A DNA stretch of 46,741 nt, taken from Actinomycetota bacterium. GTDB taxonomy: Bacteria > Actinomycetota > Acidimicrobiia > Acidimicrobiales > Ilumatobacteraceae. The notes beneath the pieces were generated by a model. The model was given only the letters and a program-made list of their open reading frames with translations. It did no database searches and was not told where the DNA came from. Location of the stretch: positions 1-46,741 of the forward strand of contig JAUSLQ010000131.1 in NCBI GenBank assembly GCA_030645675.1, read 5' to 3'. Below are positions 3 through 8,569 of the stretch, in pieces (the stretch's first letter is position 1; every line of letters starts with the position of its first letter). A program made the position numbers and the translations under genes.

Positions 3-191
3 CTGGGCATTCCCGCCGGCGCGGCGGTTCGCTTCGGGCCGGGCGAGACGCTGGAGGTGCCGCTGGTGCCCATCGGTGGCGCCCGCATTGCGATCGGGTT
101 CGCCGGGCTGGTCGATGGCCCGCTGGACGACCCGGGTGCGAAAGAGGCCGCGCTGGCACGCGCGCACGAGCAGGGGTACCTCGGAGCATGA
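3..191 (+). CDS. ureB: Urease beta-type subunit, C-terminal end (cut by window edge)
   Basis: Only the last 62 codons are present; the gene enters from the left edge in frame 3. The residues [16 protein letters not shown] and [11 protein letters not shown] match the C-terminal beta-sandwich of urease beta subunits, which normally read IPAGTAVRFEPG and GFNGLVNG. The beta subunit is a structural partner of the alpha subunit in the urease trimer. The stop overlaps the ureC start in an ATGA at 188-191, so the two are translationally coupled. It cannot be seen whether this is a separate UreB or the end of a fused gamma-beta protein, as found in some actinobacteria. Confidence 0.85.
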
Positions 192-1963
192 CCGGCACCA
201 ACCACCACAAGTACCGGCACTCGCACGGGCAGTTCGAGCACACCCACGACGGCGGCGAGGCCCCGCACAGCCACCTGCACCCCGACGAAATCTTGCCCGA
301 CGACTACGCGGCGATCCACGGGCCAACGGTCGGCGACCGCGTGCGGCTGGGCGACACCGGGCTCGTCATCGAGATCGAGTACGACGCGCAGGAGCGCGGC
401 AACGAGTTCCTCGCCGGCTTCGGCAAGACCGCCCGCGACGGGCTGCTGCTGAAGGGCGCTTCGGTGAAGGAGACGTGCGACATCGTCATCTCCAACGTCG
501 TCGTCATCGACGCCACCCGCCGCATCGGCAAGGTCAGCATCGGCATCCGCGAGGGCCGCATCTGCGCCGTCGGTCGCGCCGGCAACCCCGACATGCAGGA
601 CGACGTGGATGTGGTGGTCGGCACCGGCACCACGATCATCAGCGGCGAAGGGCTCATCGCCACCGCGGGCGCGATCGACACGCACGTGCACCTGCTGTCG
701 CCGCGCATCATGGAGGCCTCGCTCGCCTCGGGCGTCACCACCATCCTCGGACAGGAGTTCGGGCCGGTGTGGGGTGTGGGTGTGAACTCGCCGTGGGCGT
801 TGCGTCACGCGTTCAACAGCTTCGACCAGTGGCCGGTGAACATCGGCTTCCTCGGCCGCGGCTCGTCGTCGCACGAGGCACCGCTGATCGAGGCGTTGGT
901 GGAAGGCGGTGCATGCGGCTTCAAGGTGCACGAAGACATGGGCGCGCACACGCGGGCGCTCGACACAGCGCTCAACGTCGCCGAGGCGTTCGACGTGCAG
1001 GTGGCACTGCACACCGACGGCCTCAACGAGTGCCTGTCGGTCGACGACACGCTGGCCGTGCTGGCCGGCCGCACCATCCACGCATTTCACATCGAGGGGT
1101 GCGGCGGTGGGCACGTGCCCAACGTGCTGCGCCTCGCGGGCGTTGCCAACGTGCTCGGCTCGTCCACCAATCCCACGTTGCCGTTCGGGCGCGACGCGCT
1201 GGATGAGCACTACGAGATGATCTTCAGCGCGCACGGTCTGAACCACCACAGCCACAGCGATCATGCGATGGTCAGCGACCGCATCCGGGCCGGCACGATG
1301 GGCGCCGAGGGTGTGCTGCACGACCTGGGCATCATCGGCATCACCAGCAGCGATGCGCAGGGCATGGGCCGCGCCGGCGAGACCGTGCGGCGCACGTTCC
1401 AGCTGGCCGCGCGCATGAAGCAGGCGGCCGACCAAGGGCCCACCGCCAACGACAACGACCGCGTGCGGCAGTACGTGGCCAAGCTGACCATCAACCCCGC
1501 CATCGCCCACGGGCTGGCCCACGAGATCGGCTCGCTCGACATCGGCAAGCTGGCCGACATCGTGCTCTGGCGGCCGGATCACTTCGGCGCCAAGCCGCAA
1601 CTGGTGCTGAAGAGCGGCTTCCCCGCCTACGGCGTCACCGGCGACCCGAACGCCTCCACCGACTCGTGCGAGCCGTTGGTGCTCGGCCCGCAGTTCGGGT
1701 CGTACGGGTCCACTGCCGCCGACATCTCGGTGGCCTTCGTCAGCCAGGCGGCCGTCGATGCCGGCGACGACCACATGACCACGCGCCGCCGGCGCGTGGC
1801 CGTGCGCGGCACGCGCGGCATCGGCCCCGCCGACCTGGTGCACAACACCCGCCTCGGCCAGGTGGATGTCGACCCCACCACCGGCATGGTCAGCCTCGAC
1901 GGCGAAGGCGTGTACGTCGACCCCGCCGACGAGGTGTCGCTGAGCCGCCTCTACTTCCTCTAA
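188..1963 (+). CDS. ureC: Urease alpha-subunit homologue, divergent, with His-rich N-terminus
   Basis: 591 residues; canonical UreC is about 570. Residues 1-31 hold nine histidines, after which homology starts at [20 protein letters not shown] (38-57). All nickel ligands and catalytic residues align at near-constant offset with Klebsiella UreC: H166 and H168, carbamylated K246 in GFKVHED, H248, H275, H301, H349, R365 and D389. The flap cysteine (Cys319 in Klebsiella) is Ala348 (SAHGLN). The usual substrate-side GGGTGPATGTNATT loop is replaced by [13 protein letters not shown] (188-200). Nickel amidohydrolase chemistry is therefore likely; whether the substrate is urea is open. No accessory genes ureE/F/G/D follow; agmatine deiminase does, after a 31-nt gap. 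The upstream side is not visible. Confidence 0.9.
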
Positions 1964-1994
1964 CTCCGTTCGATCGCCTCGCCAGGAGCACCCG

Positions 1995-3035
1995 ATGACC
2001 ACGCCCCGACTCGCCGGCTTCTCGATGCCCCCCGAGTGGGCGCCGCACGAGCGCACCTGGATGGAGTTCCCGCCGGCCAACGAGGGCTTCGGCCGCGACC
2101 CCGATGGCGAGCTGGGCCACTACCGGCGGGTGTGGGCCAGTGTGGCCAACACGATCAACCGCTTCGAGCCGGTGTCGCTGGTGTGCAACCTGGGCGACGG
2201 CGAGGTGGCGCGCACGATGGTGGACGACGGCATCGAGATCCACGAGACCCCGATCGGCGACTCGTGGGCGCGCGACAGCGGGCCGACGTTCCTCACCCAC
2301 CCCGACGGCCGCCTCGGCGCCACGCACTGGCGGTTCAACGCATGGGGCGACGCGGGGTTCAGCGACTGGGCCGACGAGCAGCACGTCGGTGCGTTCATCG
2401 CCGGCCTGGCCGGTGCCGAACTGTTCAGCTCGTCGATGGTGAACGAGGGCGGCGGCATCCACGTGGATGGCGAGGGCACGGTGCTGTGCACCACCACCGT
2501 GCAGCTCGACCCGGGCCGCAACCCGACGATGAACCCCGAGTCGGTGGAGACCGAGCTGAAGTCGTACCTGGGCGTCAGCAAGGCCGTCTGGCTGCCACGT
2601 GGCCTCACCAAGGACTACGACCGCTTCGGCACCCGCGGCCACATCGACATCTGTGCGTGCTTCGTGCGGCCGGGTGTCGTGCTGGCCCACCGCCAGACCG
2701 ACCCGTCGCACCCCGACTTCGAGGTGACCGCCGAGTACATCGAGCTGCTGCGCCGTTCCACCGACGTTGCCGGCCGCGAGCTGGAAGTGGTGGAGGTGCC
2801 CGCCCCGGTGCAGACCCACGCCGACGGCGAGATCGTGGACTGGAGCTACCTGAACCACTACATCTGCAACGGCGCCGTGATCCTGTGCAGCTTCGACGAC
2901 CCGAACGACGACGTGGCCGCGAGCATCCTGGAGGGCGTGTACCCCGGCCGCGAGATCGTGCTGCACGACGCCCGCGACATCTTCGCCTGCGGCGGCGGCA
3001 TCCACTGCATCACCCAGCAGCAGCCGAAGGTCTGA
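1995..3035 (+). CDS. aguA: Agmatine deiminase (PAD-fold iminohydrolase)
   Basis: 346 residues; the family is usually about 350-370. Agmatine deiminase converts agmatine to N-carbamoylputrescine and ammonia in the cytoplasm. Seen: N-terminal GFSMPPEWAPHERTWM, the D-S-W-A-R-D-S-G-P motif around residues 89-97 with the catalytic Asp, NEGGGIHVDG (150-159), GHID at 215-218 with the catalytic His, and C-terminal GGGIHCITQQ with nucleophile C338. The usual Asn of GGGNIHC is absent here. AGGAG at 1984-1988 fixes the ATG start. It is co-oriented 31 nt behind ureC, so one transcript is likely. No AguB-type carbamoylputrescine amidase is in the window. A peptidyl-arginine deiminase is less likely because there is no signal peptide. 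Confidence 0.9.
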   Translation: MTTPRLAGFSMPPEWAPHERTWMEFPPANEGFGRDPDGELGHYRRVWASVANTINRFEPVSLVCNLGDGEVARTMVDDGIEIHETPIGDSWARDSGPTFLTHPDGRLGATHWRFNAWGDAGFSDWADEQHVGAFIAGLAGAELFSSSMVNEGGGIHVDGEGTVLCTTTVQLDPGRNPTMNPESVETELKSYLGVSKAVWLPRGLTKDYDRFGTRGHIDICACFVRPGVVLAHRQTDPSHPDFEVTAEYIELLRRSTDVAGRELEVVEVPAPVQTHADGEIVDWSYLNHYICNGAVILCSFDDPNDDVAASILEGVYPGREIVLHDARDIFACGGGIHCITQQQPKV

Positions 3036-3039
3036 CTGG

Positions 3040-3171
3040 TCAGGGGGCAGCGGTGTTTGGTGTGAGGGTGGTCACCACACCGGTGCCCGGGTTGTCGCCG
3101 TAGTCATCGTCGTCGCACGATGCGGCGAGCACGGCAATGGTGACAACTGCGACGATCGCCAAGTGCCTCAT
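3040..3171 (-). CDS. Small putative lipoprotein
   Basis: A 43-codon frame that ends 4 nt beyond the aguA stop, tail to tail. It has a charged start (MRH), a hydrophobic stretch LAIVAVVTIAVLAAS and a cysteine at residue 19 followed by four aspartates, which looks like a lipoprotein signal with an AASC lipobox and +2 Asp. The remainder is a short Thr/Pro/Gly-rich tail with no recognisable domain. A purine-rich AAGGAGA lies upstream, but about 15 nt from the ATG, which is long. It may be a real small surface lipoprotein or a chance frame; conservation would decide. Confidence 0.4.
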   Translation of the reverse strand: MRHLAIVAVVTIAVLAASCDDDDYGDNPGTGVVTTLTPNTAAP

Positions 3172-3303
3172 TTTCACGCTGCAGCGTCTCCTTGTGTTCG
3201 GCGCCCGCAGTCATGGAGTTCCCCTCCGGGGCGACCCTCAAACGCGCGTCTCTCACGACCTCCGTCACCGCCGTCGTTGCAGCTGCGCGAAAGTGGGTAC
3301 AGC

Positions 3304-4665
3304 ATGAACATGGAACACGTGGATGCAATCGTGCTCGGGCTGGGCCCAGGGGGCGAAGAGGTCGCAGGAAGGCTCGCCGAGGCTGGGCTGCACGTCGTCG
3401 GCATCGACCACGCACTGGTGGGTGGCGAGTGCCCGTACTGGGGCTGCGTGCCGTCGAAGATGATGATCCGGGCCGCCAACCTCCTCGCGGAGGCGAGGCG
3501 CATCCCCGGAATGGCCGGCAGTGCGGAGGTGCAACCCGACTGGGCGCCTGTTGCTGCCCGCATCCGCGCCGAGGCGACCGACAACTGGGACGACACCGTC
3601 GCGGTCGAGCGTTTCGAGGGCAAGGGCGGGCGATTCGTTCGCGGTCACGGCCGGCTGACCGGGCGCGACACGGTCACCGTCGGCGATCGCACGTTCCGCG
3701 CTTCGCGGGCGCTCGTGGTCGCCACGGGCGGCCAGCCGTCGATCCCTCCGATCGCCGGCTTGGCGGAGACGCCGTACTGGACGAACCACCAGGCGATCGA
3801 AGCCGAACAGCTGCCACGCTCCATGATCGTGCTCGGCGGCGGGGCCATCGGCGCCGAGGTCGCTCAGGTGTTCGCTCGGTTCGGCGTCGACATCACCATC
3901 GTCGAGGCTGCCCCGCTGCTGCTCCCGCTGGAGGAGCCGGAGGTCGGCCCGGTGCTGGCAGAGGTGCTCTCCCGCGAGGGACTCACCGTCATCACCGGCG
4001 TCGGCGCCGAGCGCGTGCAGCACGATGAGGGGCGCTTCGCCGTCCACCTCGCCGACGGGCGGTTGCTGGAGGCGGAACGCCTGCTCGTTGCAACCGGCCG
4101 GCGGGTCGACCTGGCGGCCATCGGCGCCGCCGCGCTCGGTGTCGTTCCCTCCGCGAAGGCGCTCCCCGTCGACGAGCACCTTCGCGTCACGGATGGCGTG
4201 TGGGCCGTCGGCGACGTCACCGGGAAGGGCGCGTTCACGCACGTGGCGATGTACCAGGCCGGCATCGCCGTCGCCGACATCCTGGGCACGCCTCACTCGC
4301 CGGCCGCCTACGACGCGCTGCCGCGGGTCACGTTCACGGATCCGGAAGTTGCCTCCGTCGGACTGAGCACCCAGGCGGCGGTCGACGCCGGCATCGCCGT
4401 CGCGACCGGGCGGGTGGAAACGTCGTCGACGGCCCGGGGCTGGATCCACAAGGCCGGCAACGAGGGGTTCATCCACCTGGTCGCCGATCGGCGTCGGGGC
4501 GTCCTCGTCGGGGCGACCGTCATCGGCCCCAACGCCGGCGAGGTGCTCGGCCTGCTGACCCTGGCGATCCATGCCGCCGTCCCGATCAGCGCATTGCGGA
4601 CGATGGTGTACGCCTACCCCACGTTCCATCGAGGTGTCGAGGACGCCTTGCGCGACCTGCCCTGA
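3304..4665 (+). CDS. FAD/NAD(P) disulfide oxidoreductase, dihydrolipoamide dehydrogenase-like
   Basis: 453 residues, the usual size of class I pyridine nucleotide-disulfide reductases. FAD-binding GLGPGG is at residues 12-17. The redox disulfide is C43-PYWG-C48 in GGECPYWGCVPSK, where lipoamide dehydrogenase has CLNVGC. A second nucleotide fold follows (VLGGGAIGAEVAQVF), then the FAD motif VWAVGDVTGKGAFTHVA and a dimerisation domain. The C-terminal acid-base motif is changed: YAYPTFHRGVEDAL replaces HAHPTxxE, so the His of the catalytic dyad is lost or moved to the His after PTF. The substrate cannot be named; lipoamide, mercuric and soluble transhydrogenase functions are not supported. The ATG at 3304 is chosen because homology begins directly after it. 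Confidence 0.8.
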   Translation: MNMEHVDAIVLGLGPGGEEVAGRLAEAGLHVVGIDHALVGGECPYWGCVPSKMMIRAANLLAEARRIPGMAGSAEVQPDWAPVAARIRAEATDNWDDTVAVERFEGKGGRFVRGHGRLTGRDTVTVGDRTFRASRALVVATGGQPSIPPIAGLAETPYWTNHQAIEAEQLPRSMIVLGGGAIGAEVAQVFARFGVDITIVEAAPLLLPLEEPEVGPVLAEVLSREGLTVITGVGAERVQHDEGRFAVHLADGRLLEAERLLVATGRRVDLAAIGAAALGVVPSAKALPVDEHLRVTDGVWAVGDVTGKGAFTHVAMYQAGIAVADILGTPHSPAAYDALPRVTFTDPEVASVGLSTQAAVDAGIAVATGRVETSSTARGWIHKAGNEGFIHLVADRRRGVLVGATVIGPNAGEVLGLLTLAIHAAVPISALRTMVYAYPTFHRGVEDALRDLP

Positions 4666-4746: not shown

Positions 4747-6381
4747 GTGAGCAGCATCGTCGTCTCTGAACTGGAATACGCACCGCCGGGGGCCGACTCG
4801 CTGTTCTTCGACGTCGGCTTCGGCGTGTCGCCCGGCGAGCACGCCGCGATCGTCGGCGCCAACGGGGTGGGCAAGAGCACCATCCTGCGGATCCTCTCCG
4901 GCCAACTGCAGGCCGACGAGGGCGAGTACGCGCTGGGTGGCAACGTGCTCACGATGACACAGGACGTGGGCATGTCGCGGCCCACCGACACCTTGCGCGA
5001 CATGCTGATCGAGGTTGCCCCGGCCGCGCTGCGCGATGCCGGCCGGGCGATGGTGGCGGCCGAGAAGGCGATGTACGACGGCACCGACGACGGCATGTTG
5101 TACGCCGAGACGCTGACGCACTGGGGCGACCTGGGCGGTTACGAGCTGGAGGCCCAGTGGGCCGCGGCCGCCCGCCGCAGCGTGAAGACGCCGGTGGAGG
5201 ACTTCCACACCCGCCTGGTCAGCGAGCTCTCCGGTGGCGAGCGCAAGCGGCTGGTGCTGGACCTGCTGCTCACCAGCAACGCCGACATCCTGCTGCTCGA
5301 CGAGCCCGACAACTACCTCGACATCCCTACCCGCATGTGGCTGGAAGAGCAGATCAAGGCGTGCAAGAGCACCATCCTGATGGTCAGCCACGACCGCACC
5401 CTGCTGGAGCGCGTGGCCACCAAGATCGTGGTGATCGAAGGTTCGGGCGCGTGGGTGCACGGCGGCTCGTACGCCACCTTCCCCGAGGCCCGTGCGCGCC
5501 GGCAGGAGTTGCTGGGTGATGCGCTGAAGCGGTGGAACGACGAAGAGCGCCGCCTGTTCCAGCACATGAAGATCATGAAGCAGCGGGCCGCGCAGAACTT
5601 CAAGAACGCCACCAAGGCCAACGCGGCCGAGACCCGCTGGGAGAAGTTCGTGGCCATCGGCCCGCCCCCGCCGCCGGTGCCCGGCCAGAACATCTACGTC
5701 AACCTGCGCGGCGCCGACAGTGCCCGCCGCGTCATCCAGATGTTGGGCGTGTCGGTGAACGACCTGTTCCTGCCGTTCAGCGACGAGGTGCACTACGGCG
5801 AGCGGGTGGGCCTGATCGGCCCCAACGGCACCGGCAAGAGCCACCTGCTGCGCGCGCTCGACGGCACCATCGGCCACTACGAGGGCACCATCGGCTTCGG
5901 GCCGCGCACGTCGGTGGGCACCTTCACCCAGATCAACGACCGGCCCGACTTCATCGGCCGGCAGTGCTTCGACATCGTGCGCGACCGGGTGTTCGACGAC
6001 GAGAAGTCGATGAAGGCGCTGGCCCGCTACGGACTCGCGTTCAACGCCAAGCAGGAGTTCGAGACGCTGTCGGGCGGGCAGAAGGCGCGGCTGGAGATCC
6101 TGTGCCTGGAGCTGGAGGGGCACAACGTGCTGCTGCTCGACGAACCCACCGACAACCTCGACATCGAGTCGTCGGAGGCGCTGGAGCGGGCGCTCGACGG
6201 CTTCCAGGGCACCGTGCTGGCCGTCAGCCACGACCGCACGTTCCTGGCCAGGCTGGACCGCTTCCTGATGATCAACGACGACGGCGAGGTCTTCTCGCTG
6301 CCGGATTACGAGGTGGCGATGGCCGCGCTGGCCAACCCGGCAGCGGTGGGGAAGCTGCGGCTGGCGAAGGTGCTCACCTGA
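4747..6381 (+). CDS. ABC-F family ATPase
   Basis: 544 residues with two ABC domains and no membrane segment, as in ABC-F proteins, which act on ribosomes as translation or antibiotic-protection factors. Domain 1: Walker A GANGVGKST (37-45), signature LSGGERKR, Walker B LLLLDEPDNYLD. A linker rich in Lys, Arg and Ala follows (about 245-310). Domain 2: GPNGTGKSH (358-366), LSGGQKARLEI and LLLDEPTDNLDIE. The second Walker A ends in Ser-His rather than Ser-Thr, which is uncommon but keeps the P-loop Lys and Ser. GTG start. Family membership is clear; whether it is a housekeeping type or a resistance type cannot be read from sequence alone. Confidence 0.88.
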   Translation: MSSIVVSELEYAPPGADSLFFDVGFGVSPGEHAAIVGANGVGKSTILRILSGQLQADEGEYALGGNVLTMTQDVGMSRPTDTLRDMLIEVAPAALRDAGRAMVAAEKAMYDGTDDGMLYAETLTHWGDLGGYELEAQWAAAARRSVKTPVEDFHTRLVSELSGGERKRLVLDLLLTSNADILLLDEPDNYLDIPTRMWLEEQIKACKSTILMVSHDRTLLERVATKIVVIEGSGAWVHGGSYATFPEARARRQELLGDALKRWNDEERRLFQHMKIMKQRAAQNFKNATKANAAETRWEKFVAIGPPPPPVPGQNIYVNLRGADSARRVIQMLGVSVNDLFLPFSDEVHYGERVGLIGPNGTGKSHLLRALDGTIGHYEGTIGFGPRTSVGTFTQINDRPDFIGRQCFDIVRDRVFDDEKSMKALARYGLAFNAKQEFETLSGGQKARLEILCLELEGHNVLLLDEPTDNLDIESSEALERALDGFQGTVLAVSHDRTFLARLDRFLMINDDGEVFSLPDYEVAMAALANPAAVGKLRLAKVLT

Positions 6382-6416: not shown

Positions 6417-8150
6417 GTGACATCGAACACACACTGGATGGTGGAGGGGGCCGTCGACCCGCGGTGGCCGATCAACACACGCGGCAACATCGGCGAGGTC
6501 TTCCCGGAGGTGCTCACGCCCCTGAGCTACGAGCTGGCGGTGAAGGCCGCCGAGGCCGGGTGGCGCGAGGCGTACCGCATGATGGGCGTGCTCGACCGCC
6601 GCGACTTTGCCTCCGACGCGCCCGTCATCATCGGCCTCTACGGCGGCTACGGCTACCTCAACCTGTCGTACTTGCGCATCCTCGGCGTGCGCGCGCCGGG
6701 CTCGTCGGCGCAGGCGATCGACGTCAGCTTCTTCGGTGAGGGCAACCCGCCGCCCTACGAACCGCACAAGGGCGACAAGCGGCCGCTGAGCACGCTGAAG
6801 ATCCTGCGCACGGTGATGAAGGCGCTGGCGCAGAAGGATCTGCCGCCGGCCGTGGCCGACAGCCGGGCCGCCGTCGCCGAGTGGGAGGCGCGACAGCCCG
6901 ACCTCGCCACCGCCGCGGACGAGGTGCTGCTGTCCTACCTGTTCAGCTACCCGCCGGTGATCCAGCGCGTGTTCCGCAACCACATGATCACCAGCGGCCT
7001 GTCGTCCATCGTCGCGGGCATCCTCGCCGATGGTGCAACCGCAGCCGGCGAACCCGGCCTGGTGCTGCAGCTGCTGGGCGCCGCCGACGAGGTGGTGTCG
7101 GCGCAGTACAGCCAAGACCTGTGGAAGATCGCTCAGATCGTGCAAGGCACGCCCTCCGTCGGCGCCGAGTTCGAGCGGGGCGTGGCCGGAGTCGGTGAAC
7201 GACTGGCCGGGCACCCCGATGCCGCCGAGTTCCGTGCGGCCTTTGCCGGCTTCATCGCCACGCACGGCCACCGCGGCCCCAACGACTGGGAGCTGTCGGC
7301 CCGCACGTGGGAGAACACGCCTGAGCTGGCGTACAGCGCGATCGACCGCATGCGCCTGAGCACCCGCGACCTCTCACCCACCGAGCGGGTCGCCGGCAGC
7401 GACGCCGCCCGCGCTGCCGCCGCGGCGAAGGTGCTGCCCCACGTGAACGGGCTGGACAAGCTGAACTTCAAGAAGGCGCTGGGTGCTGCGCCGTGGTGGG
7501 CCCGAGCGCGTGAGGCCACGCGCGACCTTGCCATCCGTGCCCACAACCCCACCCGCCGCGTGTTCTTCGAGCTGGCCCGGCGCGCGGCCGAACGTGGCGG
7601 CACCGAGCAGTTGCGCGACGTGGCGATGCTGCAGCCGCTCAGCGAGCTGCCCCGCTACGTGCAGTCGCCGGGGAAGTACCGCGCGGTGATCGACGAGCGG
7701 GTGGGGCTGCGCGATCGCTTCGCCGCGGTCGAGCCGCCGTTCTTCATCACCAACCAGACCGAGGTGCCCTCGATCGAGGACCTCGAGGCCCGGCAGATGC
7801 AGGCGGCACCCGCGGCCGCGGTCAGCGGCACCGTGTTGCACGGCTCGCCCGGTTCGCCCGGTGTCGCCCGCGGGCGCGCGCGAGTGGTGCTCGACCCATC
7901 CGACCCCGCAGGCCTGGAGCCCGACGAGATCCTGGTGGCACCGCTCACCGACCCGGCGTGGACGCCACTGTTCCTGCCCGCCGCCGCCGTGGTGGTGAAC
8001 GTAGGAGCGTTGATGAGCCACGCGATCATCGTCAGCCGCGAGCTGGGAATCCCATGCGTCGTGGCGGTGGCCGGTGCCACCGACCTGATCGCCACCGGCA
8101 CGATGGTGGAGGTCGACGGCCTGGCCGGCACCGTGACGGTGCTGTCGTGA
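6417..8150 (+). CDS. PEP-utilising enzyme, swivel domain protein lacking ATP-grasp domain
   Basis: 577 residues. The C-terminal ~90 residues are the mobile phosphohistidine domain of PEP synthase, PPDK and rifampin phosphotransferase: GSPGSPGVARGRARVV, then NVGALMSHAIIVSRELGIP with the phospho-acceptor H535. The central helical region contains HGHRGPNDWELSART, resembling the middle domain of rifampin phosphotransferase-type proteins. The N-terminal ATP-grasp domain that would phosphorylate the His is missing; the protein instead starts with a region I do not recognise (WPINTRGNIGEVFPEVLTP). It may work with a separate ATP-binding subunit, as split phenylphosphate synthases do, or use another donor. 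GTG start, 35 nt after the ABC-F gene. Confidence 0.75.
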   Translation: MTSNTHWMVEGAVDPRWPINTRGNIGEVFPEVLTPLSYELAVKAAEAGWREAYRMMGVLDRRDFASDAPVIIGLYGGYGYLNLSYLRILGVRAPGSSAQAIDVSFFGEGNPPPYEPHKGDKRPLSTLKILRTVMKALAQKDLPPAVADSRAAVAEWEARQPDLATAADEVLLSYLFSYPPVIQRVFRNHMITSGLSSIVAGILADGATAAGEPGLVLQLLGAADEVVSAQYSQDLWKIAQIVQGTPSVGAEFERGVAGVGERLAGHPDAAEFRAAFAGFIATHGHRGPNDWELSARTWENTPELAYSAIDRMRLSTRDLSPTERVAGSDAARAAAAAKVLPHVNGLDKLNFKKALGAAPWWARAREATRDLAIRAHNPTRRVFFELARRAAERGGTEQLRDVAMLQPLSELPRYVQSPGKYRAVIDERVGLRDRFAAVEPPFFITNQTEVPSIEDLEARQMQAAPAAAVSGTVLHGSPGSPGVARGRARVVLDPSDPAGLEPDEILVAPLTDPAWTPLFLPAAAVVVNVGALMSHAIIVSRELGIPCVVAVAGATDLIATGTMVEVDGLAGTVTVLS

Positions 8151-8194: not shown

Positions 8195-8569
8195 ATGGGC
8201 GTAGGCGTCTCGATCGACGACGTGCGGGCCATCACCGCCGATCTCGAGCGCTCGTACGAGGTGGTGGTGCGCGACCGGGTGAAGTTCCGGGTGGGCCGCA
8301 TCGTCTACCTCGCGCTCAGCCGCGACGAGACGATGATGGGCTTTGCGTTCCCGAAGGACCAGCGCGCCGGTCTGGTGGCCGGCGAGCCGCACAAGTTCCT
8401 GCTGCCCAAGCCTGGCGACATGCGCTACCAGTGGGCGGTGGTGCGCCTCAGTGCGATCGACGAGGTGGAGCTGCGCGAGCTGGTGGAGGAGGCGTGGTCG
8501 ATGGTGGTGCCGAAGAAGCTGCGCAGCGCCTACTTCGCCGGCCGCGGCGTGCCCGACGACCCGCGCTGA
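8195..8569 (+). CDS. MmcQ/YjbR-like protein
   Basis: 124 residues from the ATG at 8195; an upstream in-frame start at 8165 would add ten Arg-rich residues that look non-homologous. The pattern VRAITADLERS, RDRVKFRVGRIVYLAL, MGFAFPKDQRAGLV and WAVVRLSAIDEVELRELVEEAWSMVVPKK fits the YjbR/MmcQ fold, a small cytoplasmic family sometimes annotated as DNA-binding but without an established biochemical role. It lies 44 nt after the PEP-utiliser gene in the same direction. Its last 40 nt overlap, tail to tail, the phosphatase gene on the other strand. Confidence 0.65.
   Translation: MGVGVSIDDVRAITADLERSYEVVVRDRVKFRVGRIVYLALSRDETMMGFAFPKDQRAGLVAGEPHKFLLPKPGDMRYQWAVVRLSAIDEVELRELVEEAWSMVVPKKLRSAYFAGRGVPDDPR

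Follow-up and report, generated by a model that had tools for sequence, protein, structure and literature searches.

Why does a gene for a urease-like catalytic subunit stand directly before a gene of the agmatine deiminase family? The question is raised by the window, which is made up of bases 1 to 46,741 of contig C264 (G000:C264:1-46741) of an actinobacterial draft genome that is 80% complete. The window starts at the contig edge, and its first three genes run in one direction: the truncated end of a fused ureAB gene, a ureC-like gene whose start overlaps the ureAB stop (ATGA) and whose product we name UreC*, and, after a gap of 31 nt, a PAD/agmatine-deiminase-family gene (Table 1). A sequence-only reading had described the same arrangement, taking the first gene for the end of ureB, and had proposed a nickel-dependent hydrolase with a remodelled pocket that does the work of AguB on the ureido product of the deiminase.

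We propose that the window represents a urease branch that has left urea. UreC* would be a metal-dependent hydrolase of N-carbamoylputrescine (or a similar ureido amine) with an agmatine deiminase as its partner in Actinomycetota, using an acidic residue at the end of strand 2 for the amine, maturing without UreD, UreF and UreG (UreDFG) and with a His-rich tail in the window's group, and having a branch with N at the acidic position in clusters of the peptide-antibiotic type. To this reading as a whole we assign a probability of about 0.4. Its core, that UreC* hydrolyses some ureido product of its partner deiminase, is quite probable; the specific two-step pathway, in which UreC* acts on N-carbamoylputrescine from agmatine, has on sequence evidence about an even chance.

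Linkage of ureC* to the deiminase gene and replacement of AguB

Genome contigs of named records yielded 540 confirmed relatives, of which the best 80 encode UreC proteins 75-92% identical to that of the window and 43-50% identical to ordinary UreC, "ordinary" denoting 43-50% identity and no Q(E/D/N) motif. They derive from Acidimicrobiaceae/Ilumatobacteraceae-type or unclassified actinobacterial records, plus Streptomycetaceae. In 78 of the 80 loci the gene directly 3' of ureC*, in the same orientation, encodes a deiminase, at a gap of -15 to 85 nt (median 10), and because the order is conserved to this extent a chance pairing of the two genes is excluded. Of the remaining two loci, L042 carries different genes at that position, and L049, an 8015-bp contig (shared with L019/G012), turns into unrelated sequence after UreC* residue 475, from about position 6220. 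The L049 contig is probably chimeric, and the linkage therefore amounts to 78 of 79 intact loci. The same order, ureAB-ureC-deiminase, recurs in the distant actinobacterium G331 (L175).

UreC matches in 120 related genomes fall into two groups, one at 84-92% identity (10 others) and one at 43-48%, the ordinary ureases, which were recorded in 26 of the 120 genomes, some from fragments (G028, G037 and G111) and G027 in two pieces. In a maximum-likelihood tree of 74 selected UreC rows, including 13 retained Streptomycetaceae rows of the simple kind, the window clade, a clade linked to non-ribosomal peptide synthetase (NRPS) genes and the distant pair L146/L156 were united with support 100/99, apart from the 34 others. 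The tree is midpoint-rooted, the distant pair sits on a long stem, several rows are long-branched, and L042 is labelled "PAD" though it has no deiminase. UreC* of the window passes the wider PRK13207 subfamily model (728 against a cut-off of 354) and has the N-terminal Urease_alpha and the amidohydrolase domains of a urease alpha subunit; by domains and predicted model its fold is that of urease, not the nitrilase-type CN hydrolase fold of AguB.

The deiminase family is present in 39 of the 120 relatives. Ten of these genomes have UreC* and 27 have AguB, none has both, and two have neither over the cut-off: G033, where a fragment of AguB lies at the end of a contig, and G077, with another CN hydrolase. 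UreC* adjoins the deiminase gene in all ten, as does AguB in the 13 of 13 AguB-type loci fetched, G033 included. Fisher's test of UreC* against AguB, uncorrected for shared ancestry, gave 1e-7 within the 39 deiminase-bearing genomes and a weak p = 0.064 over all 120. The expected anticorrelation with AguB is thus clear only among deiminase-bearing genomes, where UreC* stands in for AguB as the partner, and with p = 0.064 the absence of AguB was rejected as decisive by itself. In the window's own genome no AguB was found over the cut-off. Ordinary urease, taken as a negative control, is unlinked to the deiminase, which occurs in 7 of the 26 genomes with ordinary urease and in 32 of the other 94 (p = 0.64).

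Co-occurrence was also counted in 150 Streptomycetaceae, per genome and not by adjacency, with thresholds of E <= 1e-170 for UreC* and E <= 1e-85 for AguB. The deiminase was found in 108 genomes and UreC* in 98, all of them within the 108 (p = 5e-28, likewise uncorrected for shared ancestry); UreC* occurred in none of the 42 deiminase-less genomes, and AguB at its threshold in none of the 150. The predicted co-occurrence of this UreC clade with the deiminase gene is seen both in the best loci, as adjacency, and in 98 of 98 Streptomycetaceae genomes with UreC*. As a separate observation, G064 (L173) and G077 (L170) carry a PAD-family deiminase gene adjoining the gene of a CN hydrolase that falls short of the AguB cut-off, and such pairs may represent a further ureide pathway.

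The active-site pocket and metal loading of UreC*

Positions in UreC* were related to Sporosarcina pasteurii urease (SPU) numbering, counted by hand on the alignment. In a 38-row alignment H166, H168, K246, H248, D250, H275, H301, G306, H349, R365 and D389 are invariant, corresponding in the same order to SPU H137, H139, K220, H222, D224, H249, H275, G280, H323, R339 and D363. The metal ligands (H166, H168, K246, H275, H301 and D389) are all kept, as are SPU H323, R339, G280 and H222 of the urea site. In urease the substrate urea is held by the carbonyl groups of Ala170, Ala366 and Gly280, and Cys322 and His323 of the flap close over it (PMC7433671). At these contacts UreC* has V199 beside a four-residue deletion in the Ala170 loop, A348 for Cys322 and G392 for Ala366. 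UreC* is like the UreC of nickel ureases (S. pasteurii, Klebsiella, Yersinia) in fold (TMq 0.84-0.90), metal ligands, catalytic His SPU 323 and Arg 339 and gamma/beta partners, and unlike it in the rebuilt loop, in C322, H324 and A366, in the lack of UreDFG among relatives that have UreC* only, and in the adjoining deiminase gene.

The pocket was compared over 129 of 141 rows (90 UreC*, 3 NRPS-linked, 2 distant and 34 ordinary), the short UreC rows L019 and L049 and ten duplicates being omitted. The loop bearing the urea-contacting Ala170 (SPU 160-176, GGGTGPAEGSKATTVTPG) is a GQE(F/I)GPxW segment in UreC*, four residues shorter. Q189, E190, W195 and V199 occur in 90/90 UreC* rows; in ordinary rows position 189 is G or A, position 190 is G in 34/34, and position 195 is W in none. 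SPU A366 is replaced by G in 90/90 UreC* rows, SPU C322 by V or A in 87/90 and SPU H324 by D or G in 90/90, and H349 (SPU H323) is kept in 90/90. The remodelled pocket postulated from the sequence alone is thus found in the rebuilt Ala170 loop and in E190. The view that every single pocket change is clade-specific was rejected, since some ordinary rows share some of the changes; among the positions tallied, only the loop Q, E (or D/N) and W are confined to UreC* and its sister branches.

E190 falls at the end of barrel strand 2 (strand 183-191 in the predicted model, mean predicted local distance difference test score, pLDDT, of 83). Its counterpart is D in the distant L146, which is deiminase-linked, and in L156, which has no deiminase match within its 1.5-kb flanks, and N in the NRPS-linked clade; in clusters with several deiminase genes the loop reads GQE(F/I)GP(V/A/S/L)W. 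An acidic residue at this position would be well matched to a cationic ureide, N-carbamoylputrescine for example, and E190 could bind the distant amine of the substrate.

The retention of all metal ligands and of the catalytic His and Arg would equally be expected of a functional urease that still splits urea, possibly by means of iron or a different metal, matures without UreDFG and shares an operon with the deiminase for nitrogen supply, or else receives urea made by the deiminase from free guanidine. The predicted model does match ureases, including the Helicobacter mustelae iron urease, iron ureases exist (PMC11541087), and the ordinary-class UreC of L140 passes the urease cut-off with a changed Ala170 loop. 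We nevertheless regard continued urea hydrolysis as improbable. On the equivalog model TIGR01792 (cut-off 680) all seven UreC* and sister proteins fail, with 626.7 bits for the window, 614 for L039, 635 for L050, 646 for L155, 611 for L120, 497 for L146 and 480 for L156, whereas six of six ordinary UreC pass with 834-970 bits. The loop QE and W are present in 90/90 clade rows and in no ordinary row, and ordinary ureases are unlinked to the deiminase. A guanidine riboswitch near the operon was also considered and rejected, with no Rfam match over the gathering score in seven loci. The Helicobacter iron urease UreA2B2 is described as a case in which the urease fold works with a non-nickel metal (PMC11541087, PMC3816311). 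It splits urea and is 42% identical to UreC* in the structural alignment. We know of no deiminase linked to it.

Urease is the textbook example of a nickel enzyme that has a single substrate and requires its own machinery for metal loading. Accessory proteins were searched for in 35 genomes (UreD), 38 (UreG) and 26 (UreF). None of the three was found over the cut-off in the eight relatives that have UreC* only (G000, G001, G002, G006, G008, G012, G013 and G049; five of these genomes are 91-97% complete and the others 75-80%), two of which gave weak UreG matches of 42-43 bits against 204. All three proteins are present in 3/3 relatives with both ureases and in 10/10 with ordinary urease only. 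The window's own genome, itself among the eight, has no UreD and no UreF (UreE was outside the search), and its best UreG match, 41.9 bits, is under the cut-off of 204.2; G331 has no UreF (UreD and UreG were outside the search there). Because the UreC*-only relatives lack all three, UreC* in the window's group cannot depend on UreDFG, and the nickel dependence supposed by the sequence-only reading is unsupported.

In the window's group, the metals would not be inserted by UreDFG, and a His-rich N-terminal tail may help their loading. The 60 aa before RLGD contain 8-18 His in 11/11 loci of this group and 2-8 in 11 Streptomycetaceae loci, there partly upstream of the likely start; ordinary UreC have 0-2 in their N-terminal stretch (19 proteins, with no more than 45 aa considered). 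A self-loading role of the tail may be considered from this composition. The absence of UreDFG from 8/8 UreC*-only relatives would also be compatible with a non-catalytic UreC*, a structural or degenerate relative of urease, but this is very improbable given that no metal ligand or catalytic residue varies within the 38-row alignment and that the gene is conserved at 75-92% identity across distant actinobacteria.

The partner deiminase and the candidate substrate

By sequence and by predicted model (pLDDT 90.6), the nearest solved relatives of the partner deiminase are plant agmatine iminohydrolases, and its catalytic residues D94, E151, H216, D218 and C338 are kept, with a PAD_porph domain. 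On these grounds agmatine is the likeliest, though unproven, substrate. The deiminases were aligned in 92 of 103 rows, and a tree was built from 64 of 150 deiminase pieces. Here the simple-kind deiminases linked to UreC* cluster together; of the 13 AguB-linked rows, L171, on a long branch, falls within this cluster and the remaining 12 lie outside it.

The genes ureAB-ureC*-PAD would encode a two-step pathway. In the first step the deiminase would turn a guanidino compound, most likely agmatine, into N-carbamoylputrescine, a monosubstituted urea, and ammonia; in the second, UreC* with the fused gamma-beta subunit would hydrolyse the ureido group, releasing the amine (putrescine) along with ammonia and CO2. 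UreC* would act with the urease dinuclear metal centre kept and the loop at the barrel mouth shorter and rebuilt, thereby doing the job of AguB with an unrelated fold. AguB (N-carbamoylputrescine amidohydrolase), a metal-free enzyme of the nitrilase (CN hydrolase) fold, is alike in the reaction proposed and in its position beside aguA, and unlike UreC* in that the two, with AguB taken over its cut-off, never share a genome among the 120 relatives. A precedent by analogy for an unrelated aguA neighbour taking over this reaction is AguY, an amidase recognised through its place beside aguA and shown to hydrolyse N-carbamoylputrescine, again with a fold unrelated to that of AguB (PMC12283126). Unlike UreC*, AguY is a GatA-like amidase, and the word "urease" is nowhere in the accessible text of PMC12283126.

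Urease clusters consisting solely of ure(AB)C were reported in 2008 for Streptomyces coelicolor (SCO5526) and S. avermitilis (PMC2492869), in a paper whose accessible text has no occurrence of "agmatin". From the Streptomyces matches, without sequence comparison, these are presumed to be the same clade as UreC*. Urease and AguA-AguB are treated as separate pathways in the accessible text of PMC3534580, and no paper joining the UreC* clade with a deiminase was found in the open-access literature searched, which does not prove its absence from print. If the proposed reading is true, a widespread urease relative that retains the metal centre, acts on another ureide and in some genomes does without the loading machinery shows how urease specificity and maturation can change, Actinomycetota have a further route from agmatine to putrescine, and the label "urease subunit alpha" is misleading for one urease gene in about two-thirds of the Streptomycetaceae sampled (98/150).

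The wider settings of the family bear on which ureide is involved. Ten Streptomycetaceae loci (L177 and L179-L187), chosen for clustered deiminases or a second ureC* copy, carry ureAB-ureC* and, per fetched stretch, between one and six genes for PAD-family deiminases. All ten also have an Opp-type permease and a binding-protein match, at 24-28% to the family-5 (Pfam) protein encoded in L175, and 8/10 have an ATPase match, the other two stretches ending within the permease gene. One deiminase in each Opp cluster, the one adjoining the binding-protein gene, groups nearer AguB-linked AguA. A protein-kinase match was also seen near 3/10 of these loci.

A sister urease clade, with a QNF motif and ureC 64% identical, lies on plasmids of Embleya, Streptomyces and Kitasatospora (L119, L120 and L121). 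On the linear plasmids L119 (Embleya) and L120 (Streptomyces) the sister ureC comes after genes of the NRPS, condensation-domain and phosphotransferase types, L121 being without annotation; the next gene encodes a 2-oxoglutarate (2OG) oxygenase in L120 and is unnamed in L119, and fused ureAB domains were seen in L120. The sister enzyme has apparently been recruited into a natural-product cluster, for whose NRPS product no matching cluster was found in literature listings. Both the multi-deiminase and the NRPS settings fit a family acting on substituted ureides.

These settings also suit the possibility that UreC* is a ureido hydrolase, but that the pair acts on one or more other guanidino/ureido compounds, for example 4-guanidinobutyrate or a guanidino peptide or antibiotic. 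The clusters with several deiminases, the family-5-like binding protein and Opp-type transporter genes, the sister clade within NRPS clusters, and the changed amine-binding region of the deiminase, with its gate loop missing, all favour such a substrate. We consider it unlikely, though less so than urea, as the nearest solved folds are agmatine deiminases with their catalytic residues kept, the window's relatives pair the deiminase with either UreC* or AguB, and one deiminase per Opp cluster groups nearer AguB-linked AguA.

Several observations weigh against UreC* being an N-carbamoylputrescine hydrolase paired with an agmatine deiminase. The PAD family spans several guanidino substrates, and the presence of several different deiminases around one UreC* in some Streptomycetaceae clusters suggests more than one guanidino substrate. 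In the plant agmatine iminohydrolase, with catalytic Cys366, D220 binds the amine of agmatine (PMC6447857); the window's deiminase has an insertion near this position and no gate loop, although D89 is kept. It also scores 286.8 bits on the TIGR03380 equivalog against a cut-off of 381.8, but this was rejected as a sign of a new substrate, since an AguB-linked relative fails too (285.4). In the pocket, Ala170 is replaced in 5/34 ordinary rows, A366 is Gly in 4/34 and C322 is Val in 3/34, and the NRPS clade retains Ala366. The own genome has two CN hydrolases with AguB as best model, both sub-cut-off (247 and 234 bits), which might do the ureide-hydrolysing job, and G064 holds UreC* plus a second deiminase beside a sub-cut-off CN hydrolase. 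L042, an intact clade locus, lacks a deiminase gene directly behind ureC, four of the genomes with AguB gave no deiminase match, and none of the co-occurrence counts is corrected for phylogeny. Finally, Streptomycetaceae have UreD in 14/14 and UreG in 13/13 of those examined, so nickel loading is possible there; this is in keeping with a second, ordinary urease, for which no search was made in that family.

Neighbouring genes and feature coordinates

The features of the window are collected in Table 1. No urease accessory gene is among the three genes after the deiminase, the window having been scanned to 8150 only.

Table 1. Features of the ureAB-ureC*-deiminase locus and the genes that follow it (positions in the window)
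Feature	Position	Strand	Remarks
Fused ureAB, 3' end (urease gamma-beta subunit fusion)	3..191	+	Frame ending ...GYLGA*; truncated by contig start; stop codon 189-191
ureC-like gene (UreC*), 591 aa	188..1963	+	Urease_alpha 124.9 bits, Amidohydro_1 140.7 bits
His-rich N-terminal tail of UreC*, residues 1-35	188..292	+	His count before RLGD
Metal ligands H166, H168 (SPU H137, H139)	683..691	+	Invariant in alignment
Rebuilt segment, residues 188-201	749..790	+	Replaces GGGTGPAEGSKATT and four further S. pasteurii urease residues
K246 (SPU K220, carbamylated in ureases), H248, E249, D250	923..937	+	Invariant in alignment
Flap A348-H349-G350 (SPU C322, H323, H324)	1229..1237	+	Cys and second His changed, catalytic His kept
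Metal ligand D389 (SPU D363) and G392 (SPU A366, urea-contacting)	1352..1363	+	From alignment
PAD/agmatine-deiminase-family gene, 346 aa	1995..3035	+	PAD_porph 340.6 bits
Catalytic Cys338 of deiminase (Cys366 of plant agmatine iminohydrolase)	3006..3008	+	Invariant in alignment
Pyridine-nucleotide-disulphide oxidoreductase	3163-4665
ABC-F ATPase	4747-6381
Phosphoenolpyruvate (PEP)-utilising mobile-domain protein	6417-8150

What lies upstream of the contig edge can be seen in relatives. L041 and L068 have a complete fused ureAB with Urease_gamma and Urease_beta domains, which in L068 (Streptomyces griseofuscus) stands upstream of ureC and the deiminase gene. The L068 open reading frames (ORFs) on the upstream side encode an isopropylmalate-dehydrogenase-like protein and an aminotransferase, with LysR and an aldehyde dehydrogenase farther away, and those downstream encode TetR, MFS and LeuA-like proteins; the nine ORFs scanned in L068 include no accessory gene, and the scan of L041 covered the ureAB ORF alone.

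Two minor observations concern other features. In L039 a match to the Rfam family 5_ureB_sRNA (8242-8529, minus strand; 45.7 bits, cut-off 40) lies antisense inside ureC*; it was rejected as a real RNA, as it is likely a match to conserved coding sequence. In the window, the product of the third gene after the deiminase has 577 aa with the C-terminal PEP-utilising mobile domain as its sole Pfam domain, and weakly resembles RedH/PigC ligases and the C-termini of PEP synthases.

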